DNA of 49,658 nucleotides from Pirellula sp. (lineage in GTDB: Bacteria; Planctomycetota; Planctomycetia; Pirellulales; PNKZ01), in NCBI GenBank assembly GCA_013822735.1, contig PNKZ01000032.1:1-49658 (forward strand). Direction: 5' to 3'. Below, in pieces: positions 2,008 through 49,252 of this stretch; position 1 is the first letter of the stretch, and the number at the start of each line of letters is the position of its first letter. The position numbers and the translations under genes were made by a program. The notes beneath the pieces were generated by a model. The model had not been told where the DNA came from, did no database searches, and was given only the letters and a program-made list of their open reading frames with translations.

Positions 2008-2266
2008 GGCGGGGCTCGCAAGGCGGGGGCGGGGCAGAAGCGTGTGAGGCGGAGCGTCACAGTCTACCCCTGCCGTGTAACCGGAGCAAAAGTGTGCGTG
2101 TTGCTCGCTCCGTGAATGCGTAGCCACCGGCCGGCTTACGCCGACCGCTCGCCGCGCGTGCCGATTGAGACTAGCCGGCCCGAAAGATGTTTGACGCGGC
2201 CGGCCGGCCGGCCGAAGATTACGGTTGCACGACTCGCCTAGCCCCCCGCCTCGCAGAGACCCCGCC
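2008..2266. other. Divergent spacer with GC-palindromic run
   Basis: This spacer separates two divergently transcribed secreted-hydrolase genes and so should hold both promoters. The only obvious structure is a run of alternating CGGCCGG units around 2198-2213 and GC-rich self-complementary stretches around 2120-2180. I see no convincing -35/-10 pair. Confidence 0.4.
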
Positions 2267-4813
2267 ATGCCGCATCGCCCCCTTGGGCAGGCCCTCGCCT
2301 GCTGCTGCGCGCTCGCCTTCGTCGCCTCCGGTTTTCTCCAGGAAACTCGTAGCCTTTCGGCCGCCGAGTTGGCCGTGCTCACTCCCGCAACTTGGCAAGA
2401 ATTTGCCCCGGCGGGAAAAGAGGTCGACGCGATCTACGGCGACCTCGTGTTACGCAACGACCGGCTGGTGGCCGTCGTCGCGCAGCCGCTGCCGACCCGC
2501 AACGCGAACATGACGGTGAAAAACGTCGGCGGCTGCCTCATCGACTTCTCGGCCCGCGACAAACAGAACGACCAGCTCGGCGCGTTCTTCCCGCTGGGCA
2601 AGGCCGTGAACTGGCGCACCGTGCATACGACGCCGGAGTTTCCGAACCCGGAAGTGCGCACGTCGGCCAAGAGCGTGTCGGTGAAGTTCACGGCGGTGCT
2701 TAAAGAAAACGAGGTCTCGGCGGAGACGACTTATACGCTGGCCGACGACGCCGACTTTCTGCTCGTCGAAACGCGTCTGCTCAACACGAGCGAGAAGCTG
2801 CAAAAGGTGACCGCCAAGGACGAAACGCGCACCGACGGTACCGGCTACCTGAAAGGCTCGACCGGCAAGCTCACGTGGTTCTACGAACGGTGGTGGAACG
2901 CGGCCTACGGCATCGTCGACGCCGAGCACACCACGCAATATCCGGCCGGCGTGAAGGCCGTCGCCGATCTCGATCCCAAGCCGGGCGCCAACGAGTACGC
3001 CGTGCCGGTGGAGGGAAGTGTGGCGCTCACGCGCCGGCTCTACGTGGCCGACGATCTCCGCAAGCTGCAAGTGCTCGCCGCCGCGAAGAGCGGCGACTCC
3101 GCCGAGACGACCATTGCCGTGAAAGATTCGCTCAATAAGTCGGTAGCCGATGCGTTCGTGGAAGTGTCGGTCGACAAGAAGCTGGTGACCGCCGGTAAGA
3201 CCGACGCGCGCGGCATGATCACGTTGCCGCGCGCCGACGGCGGCGAACTGACGGTATCTTCTCCCGCGCACCAGGCGAAAACGCTCACGCTCGAGAAAGG
3301 TGCGCTGACCACGGTCGTCACGCTCCCCGCGGCCGGCACCGTCGGGGCGACGATCACCAATGCCGACGAAGGGCCGACGCCCTGCAAGGTGCAGTTCCGC
3401 GGCACGGGCGATACCAAAGACCCGTTCTTCTTCGATAAGTCCGGCGAGCACGCGGTCGGCAACCTCTACTACGCGCACGACGGTAAGTTCACGCTCGCCA
3501 TTCCGCCGGGCAATTACGATTGCACCGTGAGCTACGGCCCGGAGTACGACATCGTCGAGCAAAAACTCACGGTCGACTCCGGTTCGCAGGCGACGCTGAC
3601 TGCGAAGCTGGTGCGCTCGGTGCAAACGCCCGGCTTCGTCAGCGCCGATTTTCACAGCCATTCGAGTCCGTCGGGCGATAACGTCTCCAGCCAGTTCGGC
3701 CGCGTGCTCAATCTGCTGTGCGAGCACGTGGAATATGCGCCGTGCACGGAGCACAATCGCCTCTCGACCTACACGCCGCACTTGAAGCGGCTCGGGGTCG
3801 AGCATTTGCTCGGCACCTGCGTCGGCATGGAACTCACCAGCGCGCCGCTGCCGACCTCGCACTTCAACGCGTTTCCCCTGAAGCTCCACGAACATCACCA
3901 AGACGGCGGCGGACCGGTCGCCGACCCGAATCCGGAATTACAGGTCGCGCATCTGGCGATGTGGGACGACCGTTCGGCGAAGCTCATCCAGCAAAACCAC
4001 CCCGATATCGGCTGGCTCTTTTACGACAAAGACGGCGACGGCAAGCCCGACGCCGGCTTCTTCACCAACGCGCTGCCGCATATCGACGTCGTCGAGGTGC
4101 ACCCGCCGCACGAGATCTTCCGCGAGCCGCTCCTCGGCAAGGATAAGACCGAGAACAACACCATCTTCAATTGGCTGCAGTTGCTCAACCAAGGGCACCG
4201 CATCCCGGGCGTCGTCAACACCGACGCGCATTACAACATCCACGGCTCCGGCTGGCTCCGCATTTACTTCGAGAGCCCGACCGACGACCCGGCGAAGATC
4301 AAGACCGACGACGTCGTGCATGCCGCCGAGCACGGGCACATCGTGATGACGAACGGGCCGTATCTCGAAGTGCGAGCCACGACGAACGACGGCAAGCAGG
4401 AAACAAGCGACGGCCCTGGCGGCGACCTCGTGGCGGCCGATCGGAAAGTGAAATTGAAGATCCGCGTGCAATGCCCCAACTGGCTCGACGTCGACCGCGT
4501 GCAGGTGTTCGTCAACGGTCGACCGCTGCCGAAGCTGAACTTCACGCGGAAGGACAACCCCGACGCGTTCCAAGACGGGGTACTGAAGTTCGACCGCGAA
4601 CTCGATTTCGAACTCGAAGCGGACGCCCACATCATTGTGGCGACGATCGGCGACGCGCACGCGCTCGGCCATGTGATGGGCCCGGAACACGCGAAAGACA
4701 AACCGTGCGCGGTGTCGAACCCGATCTACATCGACCTCGACGGCAAAGGTTTCACGCCGAACAAAGACACGCTCGGCGCCCCGCTGCCGGTGAAAGCGAA
4801 GGGGTCGAAGTGA
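2267..4813 (+). CDS. CehA/McbA-family metallohydrolase (PHP-type), secreted
   Basis: 848 residues from the ATG at 2267, which gives the signal peptide MPHRPLGQALACCCALAFVA; the frame is open further upstream but carries no plausible export signal. The middle contains carboxypeptidase-regulatory-like beta segments (about 285-400). The PHP-like metal site begins with DFHSHSS (His near 461 and 463) and continues with CTEHNR, TDAHYN and, near the C-terminus, HIVMTNGPYLEV, all typical of CehA/McbA-type proteins. CehA itself is a carbaryl hydrolase, but most family members have no known substrate, so only 'metal-dependent hydrolase' is supported. Confidence 0.85.
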   Translation: MPHRPLGQALACCCALAFVASGFLQETRSLSAAELAVLTPATWQEFAPAGKEVDAIYGDLVLRNDRLVAVVAQPLPTRNANMTVKNVGGCLIDFSARDKQNDQLGAFFPLGKAVNWRTVHTTPEFPNPEVRTSAKSVSVKFTAVLKENEVSAETTYTLADDADFLLVETRLLNTSEKLQKVTAKDETRTDGTGYLKGSTGKLTWFYERWWNAAYGIVDAEHTTQYPAGVKAVADLDPKPGANEYAVPVEGSVALTRRLYVADDLRKLQVLAAAKSGDSAETTIAVKDSLNKSVADAFVEVSVDKKLVTAGKTDARGMITLPRADGGELTVSSPAHQAKTLTLEKGALTTVVTLPAAGTVGATITNADEGPTPCKVQFRGTGDTKDPFFFDKSGEHAVGNLYYAHDGKFTLAIPPGNYDCTVSYGPEYDIVEQKLTVDSGSQATLTAKLVRSVQTPGFVSADFHSHSSPSGDNVSSQFGRVLNLLCEHVEYAPCTEHNRLSTYTPHLKRLGVEHLLGTCVGMELTSAPLPTSHFNAFPLKLHEHHQDGGGPVADPNPELQVAHLAMWDDRSAKLIQQNHPDIGWLFYDKDGDGKPDAGFFTNALPHIDVVEVHPPHEIFREPLLGKDKTENNTIFNWLQLLNQGHRIPGVVNTDAHYNIHGSGWLRIYFESPTDDPAKIKTDDVVHAAEHGHIVMTNGPYLEVRATTNDGKQETSDGPGGDLVAADRKVKLKIRVQCPNWLDVDRVQVFVNGRPLPKLNFTRKDNPDAFQDGVLKFDRELDFELEADAHIIVATIGDAHALGHVMGPEHAKDKPCAVSNPIYIDLDGKGFTPNKDTLGAPLPVKAKGSK

Positions 4814-19776: not shown

Positions 19777-20226
19777 CTACACGCACTTCCCGCAATGACC
19801 TTTCAGCAGCACTTCCGTGAGGCTGCTGATCGTCGACTTCTTGCTTCCCGGCGTCGGGGTGATGTCGACGTGCACGTCGGTCAGGCAGGTCACCGCGCCG
19901 CAATCGATGCAAACGAAGTGCGGATGTTCGGCCGAGTGGTCGTGCCCTTCGCGGCGCACTTCGTAGCGCCACACATGGTCGCCGAGCTCCGCCCGCGCCA
20001 CGAGCCCGCTCTCCGCGAGGTCCATCAAGTTGCGATACACGGTCGCCCGATCGAGCCCGGTCGGCACGAGTTCCTTTGCCAGCTCGGCGTGCGAGAGCGG
20101 CGTCTTCGCGGCGCGCAATTGCTGCAGCACCGCCAACCTTGCCGAAGTGCTTCGTAAGCCCGACTTGCGCAAAAGCGCTTTCAACTCGCCGATCTCTTCC
20201 GCGGCGCGGGCCTTCTTCATATGCAT
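19777..20226 (-). CDS. Fur-family metal-responsive transcriptional regulator
   Basis: About 149 residues from ATG 20226 (or 20220, MKKARAAEE). The winged-helix domain includes RSTSARLAVLQQL, HAELAKEL and DRATVYRNLMDLAESGL (recognition helix). The dimerisation domain has the metal-site stretch HDHSAEHPHFVCIDCG and two CxxC pairs (CIDC and CGKC near the C-terminus) for structural zinc. Sequence alone does not separate Fur, Zur, PerR or Nur specificity. It is divergent from uvrA with about 235 nt between starts, and an AT-rich imperfect palindrome at 20286-20302 could be an autoregulatory site. Possible target: the metal-type ABC operon at 41341-47860. Confidence 0.9.
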   Translation of the reverse strand: MHMKKARAAEEIGELKALLRKSGLRSTSARLAVLQQLRAAKTPLSHAELAKELVPTGLDRATVYRNLMDLAESGLVARAELGDHVWRYEVRREGHDHSAEHPHFVCIDCGAVTCLTDVHVDITPTPGSKKSTISSLTEVLLKGHCGKCV

Positions 20227-20461: not shown

Positions 20462-23400
20462 ATGCCCCTCCGTTCCGCAACTACCGACAGTGCAAGTTCG
20501 CCCCCCGCGGCAATCGCCGACGAGGAAGCGGAATTCATCCGCGTACGCGGAGCGCGGATGCACAATCTGCAAAACGTCGATATCGACCTCCCGCGCGACA
20601 AGCTCACCGTCATCACCGGCCCCAGCGGCTCGGGCAAGAGTTCGCTGGCGTTCGATACGCTCTTTGCCGAAGGCCAACGGCAATACGTCGAAAGCCTCTC
20701 CGTCTACGTCCGCCAATTCCTCACGCAGCTCCAGCGTCCCGACGTCGACCTCATCGAAGGCCTGCAGCCGACCATCTCCATCGACCAGCGCGCCGGCACG
20801 CAAAACCCGCGCAGCACGGTCGCCACGGTCACGGAGATTCACGACTATCTCCGCCTCCTCATGGCCCGCGTCGGCGAGCCGTATTGCCCGCAGTGCAACG
20901 AGCTGATCCGCCGGCAAACGCCCGACCAAATCGTCGACAACCTCGCAAGCCTGCCGGTCGGCAGCAAAGTGATTCTCCTCGCGCCGCTCGTGCGCGGCCG
21001 CAAAGGGAAACACCAAGAAGAGCTCGACGCCGTCCGCAAGGCCGGCTTCGTGCGCGTGCGGGTCGACGGCATGGTCTGCGAAATCGACCAAGTCCCCGAG
21101 CTCGCGCCGCGCAAGGCCCACACCATCGAGGCGATCGTCGATCGGTTGATCATTCGCGATAACCTCCGCCCGCGCTTAGCCGAGAGCGTGCAACTAACGC
21201 TCAAGCACGGCAACGGCGTGCTGACGATTCTTTCCGCCCGTGCCAACGGTCCGGCCGCCGTGCAAACCGCCCCTCCCACAGGCGCGGCACACGCGGCGGC
21301 GCACAAGAGCACCGGCCCCAACGGCACCAAACCGATCGGCCCTCCGAAAAACGGCACATCGCACGGCGCTGCCAATGGTAACGGTAACGGCCACAAACCA
21401 AACGGCGCGTCCGCCGCACCCGCCGGCAACGCCGAGCCCCCCAAGCCGGCCGAAGTCTCCGATTGGAAAGAAGAACTCTTCAGCACGCTCAGCGCTTGCC
21501 CCAACTGTCGCATCAGCTTCGAAGAACTCGAGCCGCGCACGTTCAGCTTCAATAGCCCCTACGGCGCTTGCCAAGCGTGCGAAGGTCTCGGCTCGCGCTC
21601 CGGCTTCGATCCCGACCTGGTCATCCCCGATCGCTCGCTCGCCTTGGGCTCCGGGGCCATTGCACCTTGGCGCGAAATCGAAGCGGAAGAAATCGAACGT
21701 CGCCGGCACGATCTCGCCGAGTTCATGACCGACCGCGGCATTCGCTGGAACACGCCGCTCAAGAATCTGAAGCCGCAAGACTTGGAAGACCTGCTGCACG
21801 GCTGCGGTAAAAAGTTCGTCGGCGTGTTGGCCTTGCTCGACGAAGAATACATCGCCGCCACGGCCGGCCATCGCGACGAACTCGAGCCCTACCGCACGAG
21901 CATCCCCTGCGCGGTCTGTCACGGCTCGCGCTTGCGGCCGGAAGCCCGCGCCGTACGGCTCGCGGATCAAACCATTCAATCGATCAGCGACATGCCGGTG
22001 AGCGACGCCCGGGCATTCTTCGCGCCGCTGAAGTTCGACGCCGAGCGCGAACCGATCGCCCGGCCGATCATTACCGAAATCCTCAAACGTTTGGCGTTCC
22101 TCGAGCAAGTAGGCATCGGCTACCTCACGCTGGCCCGCAGCGCCGATACGCTTTCCGGCGGCGAGCTCCAGCGCATTCGCTTGGCGACGGGCATCGGCAC
22201 CGGCCTGGTCGGCACGTGCTACATTCTCGACGAACCCTCAATCGGCCTGCACCCGCGCGATAACCAACGCCTCATCGACGCGCTCCGCGCCTTGCAGCAT
22301 CTCGGCAACACGGTGCTGGTCGTGGAGCACGACGAAGCGATCATGCGTCAGGCCGATCATCTCATCGACATGGGCCCCGGCGCAGGCCGCAACGGCGGCA
22401 CGGTCGTCGCCGTCGGCACGCCGGCCGAAGTATCGGCGAATCCCCTCTCGCTCACCGGCGGCTATCTCAGCGGTCGGCTGACGATTCCCGTGCCGACCGC
22501 GCGCCGCAAAGCCAACCTCAAGCGGGCCATCACCATCGAAGGGGCGTCGGCCAACAACCTGAAAGACGTGACGGCCAAGTTCCCGCTCGGCACGCTCACC
22601 TGCGTCACCGGCGTGAGCGGCTCCGGCAAGAGTTCGCTCGTCAACGAAACGCTCGTCCGGGCCGTGCGGCGCGAGCTGCTCGGCGCCGGCCCCAAGCCGG
22701 GGCCGTTCAAGAAGCTCAACGGCCTGCAACAGATCGACAAGCTCATCGAGATCGATCAATCGCCGATCGGCCGGACCCCGCGCAGCAATCCGGCCACCTA
22801 CACCGGCCTGTTCGACGAAATCCGCAAGGTGTTCGCCTCCACGCGCGAAGCGAAGCAGAAGGGTTACAAAGTCGGCCGGTTCAGCTTCAACGTCGCCGGC
22901 GGCCGGTGCGAAGATTGCGAAGGGCAGGGGGTGCGGAAGATCGAAATGAACTTCCTGCCCGACCTGTACGTGCCGTGCGAAACGTGCGGCGGCGCCAGGT
23001 TCAATCGGCAGACGCTCGAAGTGCGCTACCGCGATAAGTCGATCGCCGACGTGCTCGACATGCCGATCGACGAAGCGGTCGACTTCTTCGAAAACTTCCC
23101 GGCCATCCACCGGATGCTCAACTCGCTCAAGGAAGTGGGCCTCGGCTACGTGACGCTCGGCCAAAACTGCACGACTCTCTCCGGCGGCGAAGCGCAGCGC
23201 ATCAAGCTCGCCACCGAACTGGCCCGCACCGCGACGGGCAACACGCTCTACGTCCTCGACGAACCGACGACCGGCCTGCACTTCGACGACGTGCGTCGCT
23301 TATTGGAAGTACTCGTCCGCCTCGTGGAGCTCGGCAACACGGTCGTCGTGATCGAACACAACCTCGACGTCATGAAAACGGCCGACTGGATCATCGACAT

Positions 23401-23527
23401 CGGCCCCGAAGGAGGCGCCGCCGGAGGCCAAGTCACGGCCGTCGGCACGCCGGAAGAAATCGCGGCGCTCGCCGACAACGCGACCGGCACATACCTCCGC
23501 GAAGTACTGAACACGCCGGCTCTGTAG
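20462..23527 (+). CDS. uvrA: UvrA, excinuclease ABC subunit A
   Basis: 1021 residues, longer than the usual roughly 940. It recognises DNA damage with UvrB in nucleotide excision repair. Two ABC-type ATPase modules: Walker [15 protein letters not shown] (about 57-70) and [13 protein letters not shown]; signatures [12 protein letters not shown] and [12 protein letters not shown]; Walker [14 protein letters not shown] and [13 protein letters not shown]. Zinc-binding Cys pairs are seen in [16 protein letters not shown] and CEDC/CETC. The extra length is a low-complexity Ala/Gly/Asn/Pro insert at about 260-334, where other UvrAs have a short connection before the CPNC motif. The stop codon lies within a TGTAGGGAACGCC repeat. 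Confidence 0.97.
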
Positions 23528-40086: not shown

Positions 40087-41199
40087 TTATGAGGCCGGTT
40101 CCTCCGGCCCTGCGCCGGTCGACGGACCGTCCGGAGCCGCTGCGCCGGGAGGCGCGTCGCTGGGAAGCACGATGCTCGGCGGCGCTTCGGCGACCGGCGG
40201 CATCTCCGCCTCGGGCGCCCGGGCCGGGGAATTGCGCTCGGGCCGATCTGCCTGCGCCCGATCTGCCTGTCCGCGGTCGCCCTGTGCGCGATCACCCTGA
40301 GGCCGGTCGCCGCCGCGATTCGGTCCGCGCGAGCCGCGTCGGTCGTCGCGTCGGTCGTCCCCTTCGCGATCTTCCGGCGGACGCCGTGTGCCCGGCACAA
40401 TGCTCAACACGTCGCCGGCCTGAATCAATACGCGGCGTCGATCTTCGGTTTCGACCAATAGCTGACCGGCCAAGATCTCCTGAGCGAGCACGCGCACGCG
40501 GCCGTCGCGCGTGAGCACGTCGGCGCCGATCGGAGCCATTTCCTTCTGCAGATCTTCGTAGGTGTCGTACTCGTAGCGCAGGCAACACTTGAGCCGTCCG
40601 CAACGGCCGGAGATTTTCGTCGGGTCGAGCGTCGCCTTTTGCAGCTTCGCCATCTTCATCGACACCGGCGGCATCTCCGAGAGATGCGTGTTGCAACAAA
40701 CCGGCTTGCCGCAATCGCCGTAATCGGCCAGCAGCTTCGCCTCGTCGCGCACGCCGATCTGGCGCATTTCGATCCGCGTTTGAAACTCGTTCGCCAACGC
40801 CTTCACAAGCTCGCGAAAGTCGACGCGCGTCTCCGAGAGATAATAGACGACGACCCGTTCGCCGCCGAACATCTGTTCGACGTCGACCATCTCCATCGGG
40901 AGTTTTAGTTCTTTGATGTGCTTGCGACAGGTTTCAAATTCGCGCTCCTGCTGCTCCAGCAGCCGGCGCGATTCCCGTTCGTCGTCGGGGCTCATCACGC
41001 GCAGCACCTGCCCGCGCCGCGGATCGGCCATCCGCTCCACCACCACGTCGTTGGCTTCCATCAGCACTTCGCCGACTTCAAGACCTCGCTCGGTGCGCGC
41101 AATCACCCGATTGCCGCGGCGCAGCGTCTCGCCCCGACTGGTCGTAAAGACTCCCAGCGAGCGCATGACGCCGTAACGAACTACGTAGCGATTCGACAT
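40087..41199 (-). CDS. PSP1-domain protein (RicT-like)
   Basis: 370 residues from ATG 41199 (MSNRYVVRYGVMRSLG). The PSP1 core (about 1-250) shows the cysteine-rich signature: GDCGKPVCCNTHL and SGRCGRLKCCLRYEYDTY. In Bacillus, RicT with RicA/RicF forms an Fe-S complex that affects RNase Y and competence, and these cysteines are the likely cluster ligands. The C-terminal quarter (about 285-370) is low complexity with a run of QGDR/QADR pentamers, then Pro/Ala-rich. No RicA or RicF is seen nearby. The downstream Minf_1886-type gene is probably co-transcribed. Confidence 0.85.
   Translation of the reverse strand: MSNRYVVRYGVMRSLGVFTTSRGETLRRGNRVIARTERGLEVGEVLMEANDVVVERMADPRRGQVLRVMSPDDERESRRLLEQQEREFETCRKHIKELKLPMEMVDVEQMFGGERVVVYYLSETRVDFRELVKALANEFQTRIEMRQIGVRDEAKLLADYGDCGKPVCCNTHLSEMPPVSMKMAKLQKATLDPTKISGRCGRLKCCLRYEYDTYEDLQKEMAPIGADVLTRDGRVRVLAQEILAGQLLVETEDRRRVLIQAGDVLSIVPGTRRPPEDREGDDRRDDRRGSRGPNRGGDRPQGDRAQGDRGQADRAQADRPERNSPARAPEAEMPPVAEAPPSIVLPSDAPPGAAAPDGPSTGAGPEEPAS
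40247..40315 (-). repeat. 15-nt tandem repeat encoding GDRAQ-type pentamers
   Basis: About four copies of a 15-bp unit within the PSP1 gene encode DRPQG/DRAQG/DRGQA/DRAQA. They lie in the disordered tail and could vary in number between strains. Confidence 0.6.
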
Positions 41200-41340
41200 C
41201 GGCCGACTGTGATAGAGGGCATTTCGGAGCGGGCGAATCCCCAGTATACCGGGCAACCGCGCGGCGGGGAACGGTCGGAACGCCGCTGCCGGCACTCCCG
41301 CGAAACGCCGCTGCTCGCCCCGAATTCACGTGGCGCAAAT

Positions 41341-42462
41341 TCACTCGCTGCGAATTCCCAGCAACTCCGCATGGCGTAAGGCCGCCGCGGTGCGCTCGGG
41401 CGCGGCACTCTTCAACTTACGGAGCGCCGCGGCGGCCGAAACGTCGGGACACAGCAGCAAGTAGCCGACCACGGCCCGATCGAGCGCCGGATCGTCTCCC
41501 GAACTCTGAAGAAACAAGGCCTCGGCCCGCGCCGTATAGCCCCAAGCGCGGCGGCGGGTCAGGTCTTGCAACGCGCCGGGCGCGGTCGCCGGACGATCGA
41601 GCAAACTCGCCACGCTCGCGATCAGCCGCGCCTCGGGAACTTCACGACCGTACTGCAGATAGAACCGCAAGGCCGCCTGGGCGTGACGTACATCCCCTTC
41701 CGCAGCCTGCGGGTTGCGCAGGATTCTTTCGTCGATCAGGTCGAGCGCCGCCGTGCCGTCGACCAGCAGATAGCCGCCGAGGATGCCGTCGAACCCGGCG
41801 CGAAACTCGCCGGCCGGCGCGACGACCGTTTGTCGCAAGAGCGCACGGTCCGCGTCGCGCTCGGCTCCCGACGGGGCGAGGCCGAGCGCCATGCCGTAAA
41901 AGCCCTTCCGTTCTCCCGGCACGGCCGCGTCGACGAGCCACGCGCGCATTTTTGCATACGGCAAACCGTCGGCAACGGCCGCGACCGCTTCAAACGGCGC
42001 CCGACCGAACTCGCGGAACGCATCTTCGGCGATGTCGGCGTCGGCGTGTTCTAAATACTTGACGAAGTAACGCAACCGCTCGGCGGACGGAAGTTTCACC
42101 GACGGCGCGCGCACGTAGTAGGCGAGCGACGCCTCATCGACCGGCTCGCTCAACCAGTTCCACGGCTCCGACGCCGCGTCGGCATCGTAGCGCCCGAGCA
42201 ACAGCACGAGTTGGCCCTCAGGCAGATCCGAATCGTCGGCTTCGATCGTCGTCGGCTTGCCGAGTCGGGCCGCTCCGTCGAACACTTGGCGGACGGCAAA
42301 CGTGCCGTCGCCGACCGCTTCGGCAAGCAATAAGGCATCGGCATCCGCGCGACGCTCGGCAAACGACGGTTGCACCGCGTTGCAAAACGGGCACGCGTGG
42401 AGCAGGGCAGTGGGGGAAAGCAGAAGGAAAACGGCGATGAGAGCGCAGCGAAGTTGCGACAT
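41341..42462 (-). CDS. Secreted CPFC-motif protein, paralogue 2
   Basis: 373 residues from ATG 42462. A signal peptide (MSQLRCALIAVFLLLSPTAL) is followed at once by HACPFCNAVQPSF, a CxxC pair close to the mature N-terminus. The remainder is helical, HEAT-like. It aligns with the paralogue at 44345-45637, for example RYFVKYLEHADADIAEDAF against AFFQEYFEDADSLLAADSY. A role in periplasmic metal or thiol chemistry is inferred from the CPFC pair and the operon; no enzyme motif is seen. It is the last of the six genes of the ABC/DUF3299 group, with a hairpin repeat 28 nt upstream of its start. Confidence 0.72.
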   Translation of the reverse strand: MSQLRCALIAVFLLLSPTALLHACPFCNAVQPSFAERRADADALLLAEAVGDGTFAVRQVFDGAARLGKPTTIEADDSDLPEGQLVLLLGRYDADAASEPWNWLSEPVDEASLAYYVRAPSVKLPSAERLRYFVKYLEHADADIAEDAFREFGRAPFEAVAAVADGLPYAKMRAWLVDAAVPGERKGFYGMALGLAPSGAERDADRALLRQTVVAPAGEFRAGFDGILGGYLLVDGTAALDLIDERILRNPQAAEGDVRHAQAALRFYLQYGREVPEARLIASVASLLDRPATAPGALQDLTRRRAWGYTARAEALFLQSSGDDPALDRAVVGYLLLCPDVSAAAALRKLKSAAPERTAAALRHAELLGIRSE

Positions 42463-42489
42463 GTTCCGACGTTTCAATTCCTTGCCGGC

Positions 42490-42516
42490 CCATTTAGCCG
42501 CGTTGCTTGTCAACGC
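42490..42516 (-). repeat. Small hairpin repeat with conserved CCATTTAGCCG flank, copy 3
   Basis: CCATTTAGCCG followed by the stem GCGTTG-CTTGT-CAACGC. It lies between the DUF3299 lipoprotein and the CPFC gene, 28 nt before the CPFC start. The stem sequence differs from copies 1 and 2 at both sides together, so pairing is kept. Confidence 0.65.
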
Positions 42517-42539
42517 GCTTCGCGTCGCACGAAGCAAGA

Positions 42540-43313
42540 CTACTCCACCGCGTCCGCTTCCAAGTGGAAGATCGCTTCGTGTTTCCCGTTCAGATCCTTG
42601 TACTCGCGAAACTCCAGCGTCCCTTCGACGGCGACCGGGCGCGTCGAAAACTTCGTCGTCTTGCCGGGGACCATGTCGACGATGATGCAATCGTAGAGCA
42701 ACGCGCCCGGCCCGAAGCAGCACCCTTGGTCGTCGCGCACGAGGATGAACGATTTGACGCCGGTCTCAAACGGGCAGCTCGGATGGATGAAGCCGCGAAT
42801 CTTCACGCGCTTGTTGAAAAGTGCGCGAACCGCGTCGGTGAGCAAGGTCGGCGAGAACGGGTCGTTGCGCTCCATCGGAAACATCAGGCTATCGAACGTA
42901 ATCGGCAACACGCCGGCCGAAGCCGTCGGCGCTTCGAGTACCCGGGTGCGCGGCGGCGGAACGCTGCCCGCCGCCGTCTTGCGAACCGGCGAGCGCGACG
43001 ATTGCGTGGCGGCCGGAGCCGTCGGCATGGGGCGTTGGAGGGCGTCGCGAAATGTTCCATCGCCGCGCTTGGTTCCGGTCGGTGAAGCGCCCGCGGACGA
43101 GGAAGCCTTCGGCGCTCCGACGGTAGCCGATGTCGCAGGCGCGGCCGATGGAGAAGGGGACGGCGACGCTTTCGGCAGCATGGCGAGAGACGCCGACGAA
43201 CCGGAGCCGCCCGCCGAGCCGGGGCCGGCGACCGTCGACTGCGCAGGCTGATAACAGCCGACGACGGCGACGAGGGCCGTCAAACTCATGACCGAAAGAA
43301 GGCGAAGCGACAT
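42540..43313 (-). CDS. DUF3299-type lipoprotein
   Basis: 257 residues from ATG 43313 (MSLRLLSVMSLTALVAVVGC). The lipobox VVGC makes Cys 20 the likely lipidated residue. A Ser/Pro/Ala-rich linker (about 25-130) precedes the DUF3299 domain (about 140-257): KRVKIRGFIHPS, SFILVRDDQGCCFGPGALLY and VDMVPGKTTKF. The CCFG motif is shared with the neighbouring DUF3299 protein. Function of the domain is not established; association with FtsX-type ABC transporters suggests a metal- or substrate-binding part of an envelope complex. Confidence 0.8.
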   Translation of the reverse strand: MSLRLLSVMSLTALVAVVGCYQPAQSTVAGPGSAGGSGSSASLAMLPKASPSPSPSAAPATSATVGAPKASSSAGASPTGTKRGDGTFRDALQRPMPTAPAATQSSRSPVRKTAAGSVPPPRTRVLEAPTASAGVLPITFDSLMFPMERNDPFSPTLLTDAVRALFNKRVKIRGFIHPSCPFETGVKSFILVRDDQGCCFGPGALLYDCIIVDMVPGKTTKFSTRPVAVEGTLEFREYKDLNGKHEAIFHLEADAVE

Positions 43314-43320
43314 AAGCATT

Positions 43321-43435
43321 CCGTGCACTAATGCTACTGAATACTAGCCCCGACGCGCAAGCGAGGGGACGTGACGGAAACAGGCAACACGGAGTCCCCT
43401 CGCTTGCGCGTCAGGGCTAGTGTGTTCATGCACGG
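43321..43435. repeat. Long near-perfect inverted repeat (ACTAGCCCCGACGCGC family) inside the operon
   Basis: Arms 43343-43370 and 43394-43421 match at 27 of 28 positions across a 23-nt loop. An outer pair CCGTGCA/TGCACGG (43321-43327, 43429-43435) extends it. It fills the gap between the two DUF3299 genes. Confidence 0.85.
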
Positions 43436-43456
43436 CTCGTTCAGACTGCGAACCGT

Positions 43457-44281
43457 CTACTTAATGTAATCGGCATCGAGCCGGTAAAGAACCTGTTTCC
43501 CTACGTCGCTCGATTGAAAATTCGCGACGTGGAACGTGCCGGCAACGTGGCGCAGCTGGCGGTCGTAGCTGGTGTCGAGGCCCGGCGCGAGCTCGACGAA
43601 CACCATGTCCGACGGCGGGGGCTGGCCGCCGAAGCAGCAATCGCCGTTGTCGCGGCAGAGCACAAACCGCGTGACGCCCGTCTCATGCGGCGGCGGAAAC
43701 ATATAACCCTTGATGAATACGCGCTTCCCTTCCAGGTCCATCGCTTGCGGCGACGCGAAGTTCCGCATCCGTTCGTCCGGGTTTTTCAACTGCTCGTAAC
43801 TGATGCGCTCGTATCCTTCGGGCACTTCATTCACATAGCGAAACGCCCCCCAGCCGACGCTCGCCAGCAAGAAAAACGCCGAGAGGGCCAGCCCGATCCG
43901 CGCTTGCTTCGCTCCGGAGAGTTCGTCGGGCCGGCTGCGAATGCGTTGCAAAGCCGTGAGGCCGAGCACCACGCCGAGCGCCGGCACCGCTTTCAGAATC
44001 CAGAAGTCCAACAGCGCGATGACCGAGATCGCGCCGATCACAAGGCTGATCACCGCCGACGCGCTCAAGGCACGATACTGGCCGTAATCGTCGACCGAGG
44101 CGGCCGCCGGCGCGGCGCTGAAGAGCGACGCCGGAGTTGCGACACCCGACGGGGCGTCGGTCGAGACTTCGGGAGCGGCAGCTTCTGTCGTGGCGGGCGT
44201 CATATTCGAGTTCGTCCGGTTGCCTACGGCGGCATCTTGGTTGCGAACTAGAAATTCTATCCGGCTGCTGCTGCGCGACAT
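43457..44281 (-). CDS. Membrane-anchored DUF3299-type protein
   Basis: 274 residues from ATG 44281; ATG 44203 (MTPATTEAAAPEV) is an alternative. Residues about 70-150 contain two or three membrane helices (ALSASAVISLVIGAISVIAL; IGLALSAFFLLASVGWGAF). The DUF3299 domain follows (about 180-274): KRVFIKGYMFPP, RFVLCRDNGDCCFGGQPPP and VFVELAPGLDTSYD. It shares CCFG with the lipoprotein DUF3299 gene just downstream, so the two may form a heteromeric unit of the same transporter. The CPFC paralogue 1 gene lies 63 nt upstream on the same strand. Confidence 0.8.
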   Translation of the reverse strand: MSRSSSRIEFLVRNQDAAVGNRTNSNMTPATTEAAAPEVSTDAPSGVATPASLFSAAPAAASVDDYGQYRALSASAVISLVIGAISVIALLDFWILKAVPALGVVLGLTALQRIRSRPDELSGAKQARIGLALSAFFLLASVGWGAFRYVNEVPEGYERISYEQLKNPDERMRNFASPQAMDLEGKRVFIKGYMFPPPHETGVTRFVLCRDNGDCCFGGQPPPSDMVFVELAPGLDTSYDRQLRHVAGTFHVANFQSSDVGKQVLYRLDADYIK

Positions 44282-44344
44282 GTTAGAAATTCGTGGGACT
44301 CCGGCGGCGTGCGGCCCGCACGCTTGCGGACTCCGCCCTGGAAA

Positions 44345-45637
44345 CTACGGGTTCGCGGGAACGGTCACCGGCGTCGGAGCCGTCGCGGCAGGTTCGGAAC
44401 CGGCGGGCTTCTCCGCGGCGATCGTCTTCTCGGCCGACTTGTCTTGCGACTCGGCCTTACCTGTCGATTCGGCGCTCGTGCCGGGCGCCGTCGGGTAATA
44501 GTTCATGGCCCGCTTCACGACGTCCGGGTCGATCTTCGCGAGCTCGTCCAAATGCTTCTTCGCTTCCGGCAGCGGGCAGGCCCGCAAGTAGTTCACCACC
44601 GGCAAGCGAACCCACGACGATTCTTCGTTCGCGTCTTTGAAGAGCTGCACGAGGCGATCCATCACGGTCCAATCTTGCCAGCGCGTGAGGTCGGGAATGA
44701 TCAAGTCGGCCAACGTCGGCCGGCTGAGCATGTGCCGCATCCCTTCCTTCAAACGATCGCGCGAAATCGCGTCGGTCTCTTGGCCGATAAAACGCAGGGC
44801 CATGATGGCCGAGTAGGTGTCGGTGTATTCGGCGTCTTTATTCTTCAGGAACATGTCTTCGATCAGCGGCATGCCGTCGGGGCCGCGCAGCGAAAGGTAG
44901 CTGCCGATCATGGCGTCGAGCGCCGTGCGGATTTGGCGGTCGTCGTTCTTGATCAGCTCTTCGAGGAACGTCACGTCGGCCTGCGTGCCGCAAACGCTGA
45001 GCATGCAGAGATACAACCGGCGACGGCTCGTGCTCACATTCGGGTCTTTGATCCAAGCGATGAGCTTGTCGTGCACCATGCGCGGCTTCAGATCCTTGAG
45101 CTCCGCGTACGGCGCCTTGGCGAACTCGTCGTAGCTATCGGCGGCCAGCAGTGAATCGGCGTCTTCAAAGTATTCTTGGAAGAAGGCCAGGCGGTCGGCC
45201 CCGTTGTCCGGCAGCTTCGGCAGCTTGGTGACGTATTCGATGGCCCGATCGCTCATCGCGGTCGGCGTACCCCAGGCGAGGTTCGCCGGGTCGATGCCGA
45301 AGGCGAGGAACTTCGTGCCGATCGGCTTCTCGCCGAAATAAAGAATCTTGATCGTCGCCGGCTTGCCGTCGGCGGCGGGCTTCAAGTGCTCGCCCCCTTT
45401 GATCGCCGAGAGCACTTCAAAGGTGCACTCGCTCGCTTCCGGCGGGGCATCGGCCGGTTGCTCGGCGGGACGATTCACCAGCTTGCAGATCACCGCCACA
45501 TCGTTCGACTTGATGTCTTCCGAGAGCGTGGTTTGCGCGGCGCTGCAAAACGGGCAGGCCGACGCTTGCCGCAGGCCCGTCAGGTCGACGACCAACGCCG
45601 CGAGAGCGACCAGCGCGAACAGCTTCGATTTCCGCAT
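44345..45637 (-). CDS. Secreted CPFC-motif protein, paralogue 1
   Basis: 430 residues from ATG 45637. The signal peptide (MRKSKLFALVALAALVVDLT) ends near QASA and is followed by CPFCSAAQTTLSEDI, so a CxxC is the first feature of the mature protein. After a beta-like segment (VAVICKLVNR; ATIKILYFGEKPIGTKFLAF) comes a helical HEAT-like region (about 175-385) and a Glu/Ala/Pro-rich tail. It starts 32 nt after the permease stop codon, consistent with translation from the same transcript. The paralogue is at 41341-42462. Function unknown; the context suggests metal handling. Confidence 0.75.
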   Translation of the reverse strand: MRKSKLFALVALAALVVDLTGLRQASACPFCSAAQTTLSEDIKSNDVAVICKLVNRPAEQPADAPPEASECTFEVLSAIKGGEHLKPAADGKPATIKILYFGEKPIGTKFLAFGIDPANLAWGTPTAMSDRAIEYVTKLPKLPDNGADRLAFFQEYFEDADSLLAADSYDEFAKAPYAELKDLKPRMVHDKLIAWIKDPNVSTSRRRLYLCMLSVCGTQADVTFLEELIKNDDRQIRTALDAMIGSYLSLRGPDGMPLIEDMFLKNKDAEYTDTYSAIMALRFIGQETDAISRDRLKEGMRHMLSRPTLADLIIPDLTRWQDWTVMDRLVQLFKDANEESSWVRLPVVNYLRACPLPEAKKHLDELAKIDPDVVKRAMNYYPTAPGTSAESTGKAESQDKSAEKTIAAEKPAGSEPAATAPTPVTVPANP

Positions 45638-45669
45638 GGGACAGTTCCCTTAATGGACATTCCAGAGCT

Positions 45670-47094
45670 TTACGCCGAATTACTTAGCGCTCGCGAGACG
45701 TCGGTCTTGTATGCCGCACGGGCCGGGAAGTACCCGACGACGCCGGCCAGCAACACCAGGCCCGGGAGCAATACTAATTCTATCGGCACGACCAAGACCC
45801 CTTCCATAAAGGGTATCTCCATAGTTGGGAACTGGAAAGCGCCGATTTCGACCCCCGTTCGGGCCAATATATAAGGCCCGGCGAGTCCGATGAGCAGGTG
45901 GCCGAGCACAAACCCCGCCACGCCGCCGCAAAGCGCCAGTAGCAGCGATTCCAGCATCACTACCGATAGCACGCTGCCGCGACTCGCACCGAGCGACCGC
46001 ATGATCGCGATCTCGCGCCGGCGCTCGTTCATCGAATTGTAGATGCCGACGACAATGCTCACCGCCGCCACGACCACGATCAGCACGGCGATCACCAGCA
46101 GGATGGTCGCGATCGGGCCGATGAAGCGATCCATCAAACCGGAAATGATCTGCAACGGAAACACGGCCTGCGCGACGCTGCCTTCGTTGATATCTTTCGA
46201 CACCGTCATCGCCGCCGTCGGGCTATTGGCGTAGTTCACGCGCACGAGAATCGCCGTCACTTCGCGCTCTTCTTCCGGCAGCGGACCGTGGTGATGTTCG
46301 CCGCTCTTCGAATGGCCGTCGAGTAGGAAGAACCCTTCCATGTTGACGAACAGCGCTTGATCGTTGGGCGTACCGGTCGGCGCGAGGACGCCGACGATCT
46401 TAAACGGCTCATGCTTATGTCCGTCGCCCCCTTCCGTCACGCCGTGCGTCGGCTCAAACGTATCGCCGACGCCGAGGCCCGTCGTGCGCGCGACGATCGA
46501 ACCGATGACCGCTTCCATAAAGTGGGGCGGCGCGGCGTGGTCGTGATGGTGCTCTTCTTCCTCGTCGTCGTCAGGGCTCACCATCGTCGGCTGACGCGGC
46601 TTCTCGTGTGCGTGATCATGATCGTGGTCGTGTTCTTCGCCGGCGGCGTGGGCCGCTTCCGCGCCGAAGTTGCGACCGGCCGCGAACTGATACTTCTTTC
46701 CCGCCCCGTACTCCAACCGATCGAACATGGCCGGCGTGGTGCCGACGACGCGGTAACTCTCGAAACTATCGCCCAAGCAATACGGCACGGCCGTTTCGAC
46801 ATACGGCGCGTAGCGACCGCCGGGCTGGAACTCCTTGTAGAAGGTCCAAGGAATGTTCTCGATGGGACGATCGAAGTGGTACACGGTGTTGAGCACCAGC
46901 TGCGCGGCGCCACCCTTCGCGCCCACGATCATTTCGTAACCGCCGGCCCCGCGACGAAACGTGTGGCTCACGGCGCTATACGCCATGAGCACGGCCACGA
47001 TGAGCGCCACGCCGAGCGCCATGGAAAGAATGGTGAGCGTCGAGCCGAGCCCGCGCTGCTGGATGCTTCTGAGCGCTATCTTCCAAAGTGACAT
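45670..47094 (-). CDS. FtsX/MacB-type ABC permease with histidine-rich periplasmic domain
   Basis: 474 residues. The first membrane helix (about 18-40) precedes a long periplasmic domain, and three C-terminal helices (about 310-345, 365-395, 425-450) with YNSMNERRREIAIMRSLGAS complete the FtsX/MacB topology. The periplasmic domain opens with GGYEMIVGAKGGAAQLV, typical of a subgroup of such permeases. It carries histidine clusters: His 155, 157, 159, 161 and 163; 182-184 and 186; 226 and 228; 261; 267-269, the first two embedded in acidic stretches. These look like transition-metal binding loops, which other MacB/LolC proteins do not have. It partners the adjacent LolD-type ATPase. Confidence 0.88.
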   Translation of the reverse strand: MSLWKIALRSIQQRGLGSTLTILSMALGVALIVAVLMAYSAVSHTFRRGAGGYEMIVGAKGGAAQLVLNTVYHFDRPIENIPWTFYKEFQPGGRYAPYVETAVPYCLGDSFESYRVVGTTPAMFDRLEYGAGKKYQFAAGRNFGAEAAHAAGEEHDHDHDHAHEKPRQPTMVSPDDDEEEEHHHDHAAPPHFMEAVIGSIVARTTGLGVGDTFEPTHGVTEGGDGHKHEPFKIVGVLAPTGTPNDQALFVNMEGFFLLDGHSKSGEHHHGPLPEEEREVTAILVRVNYANSPTAAMTVSKDINEGSVAQAVFPLQIISGLMDRFIGPIATILLVIAVLIVVVAAVSIVVGIYNSMNERRREIAIMRSLGASRGSVLSVVMLESLLLALCGGVAGFVLGHLLIGLAGPYILARTGVEIGAFQFPTMEIPFMEGVLVVPIELVLLPGLVLLAGVVGYFPARAAYKTDVSRALSNSA

Positions 47095-47101
47095 GTTTGG
47101 G

Positions 47102-47207
47102 AGTAGCTAGTAGCTGGTTGCTAGTAGCTAGTTAAAGAGGATTGTCGAATTTCAAAACTAGCTACTAGCAACTAGCTACCAGCTACTTTTCTCAGCTACT
47201 AGCTACT
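47102..47207. repeat. TAGCTACTAGCTAC-family inverted repeat between ATPase and permease genes
   Basis: Arms 47102-47132 and 47156-47188, with a further partial unit 47193-47207. The ATPase stop codon (TGA on the minus strand, 47192-47194) and its last residues KVASS are encoded inside the repeat. A second family member is at 27872-27966. Confidence 0.85.
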
Positions 47208-47860
47208 TTGTTGATCTCTTCCAGCCGCTCGACGCGGGTAAACTGCGCGCTCACTTCCGGTGCGTGCGTCACGACCACCAGGGCGACGCTCTCTTCGCGG
47301 CAAGTGTCGCGCACCAGGTCGAGCACTTGCTGTTGGTGGCGCGAGTCGATGCTTGCCGTCGGTTCGTCGGCCAGCATCACCTTCGGACGATTCACCAGCG
47401 CTCGGGCCACGGCCGTGCGCTGTTGCTCGCCGACGGAGAGCATCGCCGGCTTATGGTCGAACCGTTTCCCTAGGCCGACGCGCTCGAGCAGGTGCTTCGC
47501 TCGGGCTTCGTCCGGCTTGCGGCCGCAGAAGCTCATGCCGAGCAACACGTTTTCAAGCGCCGAAAAGCCTGCGAGCAAGTTGAACGTTTGAAAGACGTAG
47601 CCGATGTTGTTGGCGCGAAACATGTCGCGGCCGACTTCGTTGAGCTGCGTAATGTCGGTGCCGTTGATCTGCACCCTGCCAGCATCAGGCCGGGAGATCC
47701 CCGCGATGATATGGAGCAGCGTCGTTTTGCCGCTCCCCGAGCCGCCGACCAGCGCGAGCTGCTCGCCCGCCGCAACTTCGAAGCGCGGCACGTTGAGAAT
47801 CGGCAGCGGCTCGCCGTCGGGCAAGCGGAACGACTTTTGAACGTTTTCGACCAGCAACAT
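47192..47860 (-). CDS. LolD/MacB-type ABC transporter ATPase
   Basis: 222 residues, a standalone ATP-binding subunit. Walker A GGSGSGKTT (about 39-47), Q-loop in VFQTFNLLAGF, signature LSVGEQQRTAVARAL (LSVGE instead of LSGGQ), Walker B VMLADEPTASID and H-loop VVVTHAPE. It energises the FtsX-type permease encoded next. It is the first gene of the run 47860 to 41341. A TTGCAA-N5-TTGCAA palindrome lies 96 nt upstream of its start. The last five codons (KVASS) come from a spacer repeat, so the natural C-terminus may once have been different. Confidence 0.92.
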   Translation of the reverse strand: MLLVENVQKSFRLPDGEPLPILNVPRFEVAAGEQLALVGGSGSGKTTLLHIIAGISRPDAGRVQINGTDITQLNEVGRDMFRANNIGYVFQTFNLLAGFSALENVLLGMSFCGRKPDEARAKHLLERVGLGKRFDHKPAMLSVGEQQRTAVARALVNRPKVMLADEPTASIDSRHQQQVLDLVRDTCREESVALVVVTHAPEVSAQFTRVERLEEINKVASS

Positions 47861-48016: not shown

Positions 48017-48170
48017 AGGGAGATAGGGGGATGAGAAGGGGATGGTGGGGATGTCGGAGATAAGAATTGTTGAGACTGAAAAGCGTCGTCGATTGTGCTT
48101 CACATGAATACATGCAGCTTTGTTTTCCGATCTCCTTATCTCCTTCTCATCCCCCTATCCCCTTTTCCGA
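48017..48170. repeat. Inverted repeat of the GATAGGGGGATGAGAAGGGG family
   Basis: Left arm 48018-48065 (GGGAGATAGGGGGATGAGAA…) and right arm 48127-48168 (CTCCTTATCTCCTTCTCATC…) with an AT-richer loop of about 60 nt. It ends 24 nt before the dehydrogenase start. Confidence 0.8.
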
Positions 48171-48193: not shown

Positions 48194-49252
48194 ATGAAGA
48201 CTTACAGAATTGCGTTGTATCCCGGCGACGGCATCGGGCCGGAAGTCGTCGACCAAGCGGTGCGCGTGCTCGATGCCGTGCAGGCGCGCCACGGATTCCA
48301 GCTCGACTACGTCCGTTTGCCGTGGGGCTTCGACTATTGGCGCGAGCATGGCCGCGTGGTGCCGGAAGATTTTCTCGACGTGCTGCGCCCGTTCGACGCC
48401 ATCTTGCTCGGCGCGGTCGGTTGGCCCGCGACGCTGCCCGACCATGTGACGCTCGCGCCGCTGGTAAAGATTCGCCAGACGTTCGAGCAGTATGCCTGCA
48501 TTCGGCCGGCGAAGTTGCTGCCCGGCGTGAAGAGCGTGCTCGTCGGCAAAGGTCCGGCGGAGATCGACTTCGTCGTCCTGCGTGAAAACTCGGAAGGGGA
48601 GTACGTCGACTCCGGCAGCCGGTTTCGCCAAGGACAAGACGACGAGGTGGCGCTGCAGACGGCGATCCACACCCGTCGCGGCGTCGAACGTATTCTTCGC
48701 TTCGGCTTCGAGATGGCCCGGAAGCGCCGTAAGCGGCTGACGATGATCACCAAATCGAACGCGCAGCGCTTCGCCTACACGCTTTGGGACGACCTACTCG
48801 AACTTGTGAAGCCCGACTATCCGGACGTGTCGGCCGACAAGCTCCACTGCGACGCGGCGGCGATGGACTTCGTCCGCCGGCCCGAGCGGTTCGACGTCGT
48901 CGTCGCCTCGAACTTGTTCGGCGACCTGCTTACGGACCTCGGCGGCGTGATCGGCGGCGGTCTCGGACTGGCCCCCAGCACCAATACGAATCCGGAGCGG
49001 AAGTATCCGTCGATGTTCGAGCCGGTGCACGGCAGCGCGCCGGACATCGCGGGGCAGGGCATTGCCAACCCGGTGGCACAGGTACTCAGCGCGGCGATGA
49101 TGCTCGAGTGGCTCGGCGAAGACGCCGGTGCGACCACGATCCGCCGCGCCGTCGAACAAACGCTGGCCGCCGGCAAGCACACGCCGGACCTCGGCGGCGC
49201 GCTGACGACGTCGCAAATGGGCGACGCGCTGGTGCAGGCCTGCGGCGGCTGA
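48194..49252 (+). CDS. Tartrate/D-malate-type dehydrogenase (isopropylmalate dehydrogenase family)
   Basis: 352 residues, full length. The N-terminus MKTYRIALYPGDGIGPEVVD and LLGAVGWPATLPDH are close to tartrate/D-malate dehydrogenases rather than leucine-pathway enzymes, which have a different substrate loop. Other blocks: VVLRENSEGEY (substrate and cofactor contacts), TRRGVERILRFGFEMA, MITKSNA and DVVVASNLFGDLLTDLGG (metal-binding Asp), then FEPVHGSAPDIAGQGIANP (NAD-binding loop). The family oxidatively decarboxylates beta-hydroxyacids with NAD and Mg/Mn. Leu, isocitrate or homoisocitrate roles are less likely. No leuC/leuD is adjacent. Confidence 0.85.
   Translation: MKTYRIALYPGDGIGPEVVDQAVRVLDAVQARHGFQLDYVRLPWGFDYWREHGRVVPEDFLDVLRPFDAILLGAVGWPATLPDHVTLAPLVKIRQTFEQYACIRPAKLLPGVKSVLVGKGPAEIDFVVLRENSEGEYVDSGSRFRQGQDDEVALQTAIHTRRGVERILRFGFEMARKRRKRLTMITKSNAQRFAYTLWDDLLELVKPDYPDVSADKLHCDAAAMDFVRRPERFDVVVASNLFGDLLTDLGGVIGGGLGLAPSTNTNPERKYPSMFEPVHGSAPDIAGQGIANPVAQVLSAAMMLEWLGEDAGATTIRRAVEQTLAAGKHTPDLGGALTTSQMGDALVQACGG

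Follow-up and report, generated by a model that had tools for sequence, protein, structure and literature searches.

The contig PNKZ01000032.1 of a Pirellula sp. assembly (GCA_013822735.1), analysed over its whole stretch of 49,658 nucleotides (the window), carries six genes at positions 41341-47860, all on the minus strand and read in one direction. They encode an ABC ATPase, an FtsX/MacB-type permease, two paralogous secreted proteins with a CPFC motif (CPFC1 and CPFC2) and two DUF3299 proteins (DUF3299a and DUF3299b). A preliminary description, made from the sequence alone, had listed the six genes at these same positions and proposed an envelope system for a transition metal, probably zinc. 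Its gene list is confirmed, and its proposal is supported by homology of the permease and the DUF3299 proteins to their Zrg counterparts, by conserved histidines and cysteines, and by a Fur-type operator with the genes linked to it. The operon is a probable planctomycete version of the zinc-starvation system known as Zrg in Vibrio and as PA4063-PA4066 in Pseudomonas aeruginosa, in a form without ZrgA. Coordinates are collected in Table 1.

Results

The permease and its conserved histidines

The permease has FtsX and MacB_PCD domains (Pfam), four hydrophobic segments in a simple hydropathy scan, a large periplasmic domain and 21 histidines in total. Its tree was built from 57 sequences: 40 from the 70 loci fetched around related permeases (see below), the window permease and 16 others. 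A single clade with support of 100/99 unites the 41 window and fetched-locus permeases with three proteobacterial Zrg-type permeases and one from Deinococcus. The 12 outgroups, namely MacB, LolC, LolE and nine other FtsX proteins of the same genome, fall outside it, and the permease part of E. coli MacB clusters with those FtsX proteins. In a small blastp test set the window permease matches four Zrg-like permeases (three from DUF2796-DUF3299 operons, one from Deinococcus) with E values of 1e-42 to 2e-51, against no better than 1e-13 for MacB, LolC/E and the FtsX proteins of its own genome. With the lolCE equivalog model it scores 43.2, where the cut-off is 362.45. The resemblance to Zrg had been taken as one of layout only; the permease clade, together with the placement of the DUF3299 proteins in the ZrgE family, makes it, on sequence grounds, a matter of homology.

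Three histidines mark this clade. H217 is found in 44 of the 45 clade rows and in none of the 12 outgroups (nine of which are gapped at this column), H226 in 42/45 and 0/12, and H261 in 38/45 and 0/12. If any histidine within columns 255-264 is counted, the third position is occupied in all 45 clade rows and in 2/12 outgroups. D245 is present in 45/45 clade rows but also in 6/12 outgroups. The near-invariant clade histidines are candidate metal ligands.

It is these residues that are conserved, and not the histidine clusters which the preliminary description had pointed out in the permease, counting at least four. Three clusters (at least four histidines in 12 residues) are present, at residues 148-168, 175-194 and 258-272, and the HKH at 226-228 falls outside them. 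Only 27 of 65 near-full-length permeases contain a cluster, and neither its position nor its presence is conserved: the two closest orthologues (L032 and L033) have clusters and many others lack them. No cluster was found in the Zrg-type and Deinococcus permeases, the P. aeruginosa permease likewise. A cluster occurs in none of the 11 permeases with a His-rich HGG lipoprotein at the locus and in 27 of the 54 without one (Fisher p 0.0017, uncorrected for kinship; 3e-6 to 0.027 at other thresholds). A further 27 permeases have neither cluster nor HGG lipoprotein, so that the substitution is partial. We read the His loops and the HGG lipoproteins as alternative supplies of a zinc-gathering surface.

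The ATPase

Zrg systems have a separate ATPase gene of the LolD/MacB type (ZrgC), and so does the operon. The protein is LolD-like, as had been described, yet its score with the LolD equivalog model is 195.7 against a cut-off of 307.75. A gene for it adjoins the permease in 60 of the 70 permease loci. Membership of LolCDE was rejected on the lolCE and LolD scores and on the position of LolC and LolE outside the permease clade, and membership of the MacB drug-export family on the separation of the permease from MacB in the tree. A membrane-fusion (MacA-type) domain was not found by Pfam among the six operon proteins.

The DUF3299 and CPFC proteins

DUF3299b reaches 29 bits with the DUF3299 model (cut-off 22), has a sub-threshold DUF4190 match (29.4 bits, cut-off 35) and matches the solved structure of PA4066 (4hsp) with an E value of 2.1e-4. 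DUF3299a has a lipoprotein-like N-terminus and aligns with the family despite its score below the cut-off. The Pfam model misses divergent members, 21 of the 40 genomes with CPFC proteins being without a Pfam DUF3299 match. One cysteine is invariant in 71/71 aligned rows; the next residue is also a cysteine in 61 of them (CCFG), and I-H or V-H follows in four proteobacterial rows. The DUF3299 family is the ZrgE family. Members of the DUF3299b lineage from across the class form one group (SH-aLRT 91), which indicates that the DUF3299 pair is old.

In 20 aligned CPFC members C28-P-F-C31 (CPFC1 numbering) is invariant and directly follows the signal peptide. CPFC2 has no Pfam match and is 28% identical to CPFC1. 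A profile seeded with CPFC1 finds its counterparts in L032 and L033, and its deeply diverged lineage is represented among 44 CPFC rows only by the window and these two closest loci. The order CPFC-DUF3299-DUF3299-CPFC, formerly described as a mirrored duplication, is real in the window; a single duplication event is unsupported, given the old DUF3299 pair and the deep CPFC2 lineage in trees from short searches with some long branches.

The AlphaFold model of CPFC1 (pLDDT 83.7; 84.4 for the N-terminal domain alone) consists of a small beta domain and a HEAT solenoid. The best Foldseek match of the N-terminal domain is 1uap (E 6.7e-4, TMq 0.57, root-mean-square deviation (rmsd) 6.6), and its comparison with agrin NtA (3i70) gives a Z-score of 7.2 at an rmsd of 3.8 A over 99 residues, a Z-score that could arise by chance. 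In the Z-scored fold comparison the first 17 rows are all NTR, TIMP or complement C3/C5 chains. Full-length CPFC1 finds chiefly proteins with HEAT/armadillo repeats; NtA and TIMP-1 appear at ranks 7, 12 and 41. Pfam gives no NTR/TIMP match at E <= 0.01 for CPFC1 and none at E <= 1 for CPFC2 and four related CPFC proteins. The CPFC N-terminal domain is predicted to be an NTR/TIMP-like OB fold, joined to a HEAT solenoid, which is a first structural hypothesis for the family. In TIMPs the N-terminal cysteine of the mature protein binds the zinc of the metalloprotease.

Distribution of the gene families

We surveyed 392 genomes of the phylum, accepting permease matches at E <= 1e-20, CPFC matches at E <= 1e-8 and Pfam DUF3299 matches at E <= 0.001. 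Permease matches occur in 148 genomes, CPFC in 40 and DUF3299 in 96. The families keep company elsewhere: the permease is present in all 40 CPFC genomes (Fisher p 3e-19) and in 92 of the 96 DUF3299 genomes (p 2e-44), both p values being uncorrected for kinship. The window's class accounts for 37 of the 40 CPFC genomes; the other three (G082, G147 and G176) have partial matches without the N-terminal domain.

The 70 permease loci were fetched around, and chosen for, the permease, and five of them have less than 1.5 kb of downstream sequence. The named loci belong to Planctomycetota, Verrucomicrobiota, Chlorobiota and one Methylomirabilis metagenome-assembled genome (MAG), the closest being Planctomycetota MAGs with permease identities of 68-71%. 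A DUF3299 gene lies on the same strand within 5 kb of the permease in 50 of the 70, and 15 have two or more. CPFC is found in 16 and a His-rich HGG lipoprotein in 13, never both together. Three permease loci (L035, L036 and L037) have no ATPase gene found adjoining; in L035 and L037 a lipoprotein-like NCPFC protein precedes the permease, and upstream there is a divergent His-rich lipoprotein with an ATGCAA-N5-TTGCAT palindrome.

A further 20 loci were fetched around CPFC genes, mostly chosen for CPFC away from the permease. With a tuned DUF3299 profile, CPFC is accompanied by two or three DUF3299 genes in 13 of these, 11 of which contain no permease in the fetched stretch. CPFC and DUF3299 therefore form a module of their own.

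The operator and its candidate regulator

An exact TTGCAA-N5-TTGCAA precedes the ATPase gene. It is the sole match in the window at up to one mismatch (chance mean 0.15), and the genome (6.88 Mb) has two exact sites, against none for the reversed-pattern control. Related promoters were compared in a set of 63, made up of 60 ATPase promoters (window included) and those of L035-L037, which were added after a near-box had been seen there. When up to one mismatch is allowed, TGCAA-N5-TTGCA is present in 17 of the 63, against 0.92 expected from shuffles, and other spacings from 0 to 11 give 0-3 matches each. In the set as it stood before L035-L037, with 61 promoters, the longer pattern was matched with two mismatches or fewer in 14, where about 0.7 were expected from random stretches of the same loci. 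The promoter stretch of L036 was misplaced, so that its box was missed, and several promoters come from close relatives and are not independent. Motifs known for Zur and Fur boxes were also tried and rejected, having four loose matches, each at one locus and none in the window. A regulon in the same genome at one mismatch was likewise discarded (19 sites against 11 control sites); by eye, without a Pfam scan, no metal transport gene adjoins the 18 such sites other than that of the window.

The exact operator was counted 30 times in 59 genomes of the class and the reversed pattern 14 times; nine of the 30 sites adjoin metal-linked genes. These are the ATPase of this system (G000 and G152), a Fur-family gene (G205, G377, G333 and G327), a His-rich lipoprotein with a divergent MerC gene (G137 and G194) and a ZIP transporter (G257; PF02535, E 7.2e-28). 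The operator-linked genes suggest zinc rather than nickel. Among the fetched loci, a MerC-domain gene and the gene for a His-rich lipoprotein of the L036/L037 family flank an exact operator in L196 and L197, and in L191 a multicopper oxidase gene (2231-4001, plus strand) begins about 190 bp after one. In related genomes, at L181, L183 and L189 and at L182 and L199, an exact operator stands ahead of genes whose products have a prepilin-like N-terminus and ahead of one for a small secreted protein of unassigned family, which are possibly a further part of the regulon.

The Fur protein encoded in the window is 44-48% identical to the Fur proteins of G205, G327 and G333, whose genes have the exact box; the other Fur of the same genome is 24-27% identical to them. 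The window Fur is therefore the candidate reader of the operator. The genome has just one further FUR-domain match; the window Fur gene adjoins, by eye, a uvrA-like open reading frame at 20462-23527. In L083 a Fur-family gene is the divergent neighbour of the ATPase gene; others lie close to the operon in L046 and at a greater distance in L060, and the annotation of L104 places one in front.

The missing ZrgA

No ZrgA (PF10986) was found in the genome. Of the 392 genomes, 12 have a match at E <= 0.001, and one of these matches exceeds the cut-off; it has an internal stop and is over 1 Mb away from its permease. Run on four control records, the search was positive in three. As ZrgA was not found, the locus is filed as a Zrg-like variant and not as a member of ZrgABCDE. 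The order DUF2796-ATPase-permease-DUF3299 was seen in plasmid-collection records of Phaeobacter (with a Fur gene in front), Sulfitobacter (with two DUF3299 genes) and P. aeruginosa, and the comparison with Zrg was made with these loci rather than with the Vibrio sequences themselves. In place of ZrgA there are the His loops of the permease, a His-rich HGG lipoprotein or CPFC proteins.

Neighbouring genes and coordinates

On the 5' side of the operon a gene of the isocitrate/isopropylmalate dehydrogenase family (Pfam; 48194-49252, plus strand) is divergent from it and has a promoter region in common with it; a similar gene is present in L032, L033 and L047. A PSP1 gene (40087-41202) is the downstream neighbour. 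Short inverted repeats, perhaps elements resembling repetitive extragenic palindromes, were seen by eye between genes at 43345-43430, 47100-47200 and 48020-48170.

Table 1. Features of the putative zinc-starvation operon and of its candidate regulator in the window
Feature	Position	Strand	Details
ABC ATPase (LolD/MacB/ZrgC type)	47192..47860	-	222 aa; ABC_tran E 2.4e-34
FtsX/MacB-type permease, ZrgB clade	45670..47094	-	474 aa; FtsX E 5.1e-16, MacB_PCD E 1.9e-12
Permease His/Asp stretch	46312..46446	-	Codons: H217 46444-46446, H226 46417-46419, D245 46360-46362, H261 46312-46314
Permease variable His-rich loop span	46279..46653	-	Residues 148-168, 175-194, 258-272
CPFC1: signal peptide, predicted NTR/TIMP-like OB domain from ACPFC, HEAT solenoid	44345..45637	-	430 aa; HEAT_2 E 1.2e-7
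DUF3299b (ZrgE family), N-terminal membrane segment resembling DUF4190	43457..44281	-	274 aa; DUF3299 E 1.3e-6
DUF3299a, lipoprotein-like, CCFG	42540..43328	-	262 aa from first start in frame; DUF3299 17.5 bits, below cut-off
CPFC2, divergent CPFC1 paralogue	41341..42462	-	373 aa; 28% identity to CPFC1, CPFC kept
Fur-family-type operator TTGCAA-N5-TTGCAA	47956..47972	.	95 bp upstream of ATPase gene
Fur-family regulator, candidate reader of operator	19780..20220	-	FUR E 9.7e-15

Discussion

A zinc-starvation envelope system of the Zrg kind, without ZrgA, is the reading that we prefer, at a probability of about 0.6. For Vibrio parahaemolyticus, PMC9817125 assigns zrgE to the DUF3299 protein, zrgB to the permease, zrgC to the ATPase and zrgA to a zinc-binding DUF2796 protein, and describes a strong induction of the zrg genes when zinc is limiting. 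With zinc in short supply, zrgA supports the growth of V. cholerae, and it has a part in the acquisition of zinc by V. parahaemolyticus, according to PMC9817125 and PMC9820375. Zinc is most likely also the metal of the present operon.

Several observations weigh against this reading. The ATPase, taken alone in blastp, resembles ZrgC no more than it does LolD or YbbA and is unassignable. In the three Zrg-type permeases column 261 is not a histidine, a histidine lying nearby instead (IHVDW/LHVDW). No DUF3299 gene lies within 5 kb in 20 of the 70 permease loci, and the co-occurrence counts are uncorrected for kinship. The operator is missing, at more than one mismatch, from 46 of the 63 promoters, and 21 of the 30 exact sites adjoin no recognised metal-linked gene of the kinds above; one of these is the site before the multicopper oxidase gene, and the others are inside long open reading frames or beside genes with no evident metal link. 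The other exact site in this genome stands before a gene resembling a sugar-nucleotide epimerase, and no box lies upstream of the window Fur gene, where the best match has five mismatches.

A course of action can be sketched. At low zinc a Fur-family (Zur-like) repressor would leave TTGCAA-N5-TTGCAA, as the operator suggests, and the operon would be expressed. The ATPase and the permease, with its four transmembrane segments, would form a machine like MacB or LolCDE, in which, to go by the domains in common, ATP hydrolysis would move the periplasmic domain. LolCDE performs such ATP-driven movement. For MacB it is described in PMC11481552. The His-rich loops of the permease may gather zinc, and its periplasmic domain may hold a clade-specific metal site made of H217, H226, the histidine at or near 261 and perhaps D245. 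Zinc could then pass between this site and thiols of the partners, that is, the invariant cysteine of DUF3299 and the N-terminal CxxC of CPFC. The DUF3299 partners would be an OB-fold lipoprotein and a membrane protein, and the HEAT solenoid of CPFC may dock other envelope proteins. The likely outcome would be an ATP-driven release or hand-over of zinc in the periplasm, feeding import. Among help with import, transfer of zinc between periplasmic proteins and export of a complex, we favour periplasmic mobilisation that feeds import.

The principal alternative is a MacB-like exporter of a metal-chelator complex or a peptide, in which DUF3299 and CPFC would be adaptors and zinc starvation merely the signal. 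In PMC11481552 PA4064-PA4065 is modelled as MacB and reported as a pyochelin-cobalt exporter, and losing it in a mutant for zinc uptake increased the pyochelin and cobalt inside the cells; the MacB_PCD domain of the window permease fits this as well. We nevertheless consider such an exporter unlikely here, as the permease clade is separate from MacB, no MacA-type domain is encoded in the operon, and the clade-specific histidines with the linked His-rich proteins suggest that the machine itself binds metal. The cobalt effect of the P. aeruginosa relative could also speak for a nickel or cobalt system of the same anatomy under a Nur-like regulator, and the operator has the same sequence as the Nur (nickel) box proposed for Streptomyces in PMC3919588, a further point against zinc. 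A nickel or cobalt system appears improbable, given the ZIP transporter, MerC and His-rich lipoprotein genes linked to the operator in relatives and given that the characterised relatives are zinc-regulated (PMC9817125, PMC11481552). Moreover, no nickel transporter or urease was recognised beside the 30 exact sites, where nine adjoining proteins were scanned with Pfam. Sorting of DUF3299 or other lipoproteins in the manner of LolCDE, with the histidine stretches incidental, would suit a LolD-like ATPase, an FtsX permease and one lipoprotein-like protein in a single operon. It would leave the clade-wide histidines and the operator unexplained, and with both equivalog cut-offs missed and LolC and LolE outside the clade it is very improbable.

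Beyond the zinc-starvation reading itself, we tentatively propose, at somewhat less than even odds, that the FtsX-type permease does not import zinc at all. It would use ATP to strip zinc from envelope proteins or load it onto them, through an invariant periplasmic metal site of its own, and ZrgA would be an exchangeable accessory, replaced by unrelated parts such as His loops, HGG lipoproteins or CPFC proteins. If this is true, an ATPase, a His-site permease and a Cys-site DUF3299 protein constitute a conserved core across Planctomycetota, Verrucomicrobiota, Chlorobiota and Proteobacteria, and the importer and exporter readings of Zrg and PA4063-PA4066 could be reconciled. The function of these systems is disputed, between a zinc importer and a pyochelin-cobalt exporter, and a version without ZrgA in a distant phylum may show which parts are essential. 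H217, H226, the third histidine and the DUF3299 cysteine would be the places of metal handling to which it points, and an operator and a regulator are suggested for zinc control in Planctomycetota. No paper on a planctomycete version was found in the open-licence literature, and the word histidine is absent from the text of PMC11481552 used here. As far as these papers go, the planctomycete branch, the clade histidines, the substitution of ZrgA, the CPFC family with its predicted fold, and the operator with its linked genes are new.

Comparison with known systems

The operator agrees with that of the Nur regulon of Streptomyces (tTGCaa-N5-ttGCAA), whereas in this case it is linked to genes for ZIP, MerC and His-rich lipoproteins, to a Fur gene and to the present operon. 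With the NTR/TIMP domains (PCOLCE1, agrin NtA, meteorin, TIMP-1 and complement C345C) the CPFC N-terminal domain may share its predicted OB fold. In TIMPs, too, a cysteine motif begins the mature protein; however, the CPFC proteins have CPFC instead of CxC, are bacterial and carry a HEAT solenoid. The likeness is structural only. MacAB-TolC and LolCDE have the class of FtsX-type permease plus ATPase in common with the operon, and the ATP-driven mechanics are probably alike, but the window permease stands outside both in the tree, has the extra clade-specific histidines and has no MacA partner in the operon.

The permease of PA4063-PA4066 is homologous (27-28% identity), as is its DUF3299 protein (4hsp), and the order ATPase-permease-DUF3299 is common to both loci. 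In contrast, PA4063 (ZrgA) is replaced in the window, and the P. aeruginosa permease lacks a His cluster and has its third histidine shifted (LHVDW). Compared with the ZrgABCDE of Vibrio, the window has a pair each of DUF3299 and CPFC proteins, a permease with His loops, a different operator sequence and no ZrgA (DUF2796) that could be found. What the two have in common is an FtsX/MacB-type permease, a separate ATPase, a DUF3299 protein (ZrgE) and probably a metal-regulated promoter, under Zur in Vibrio and with a Fur-type box here.

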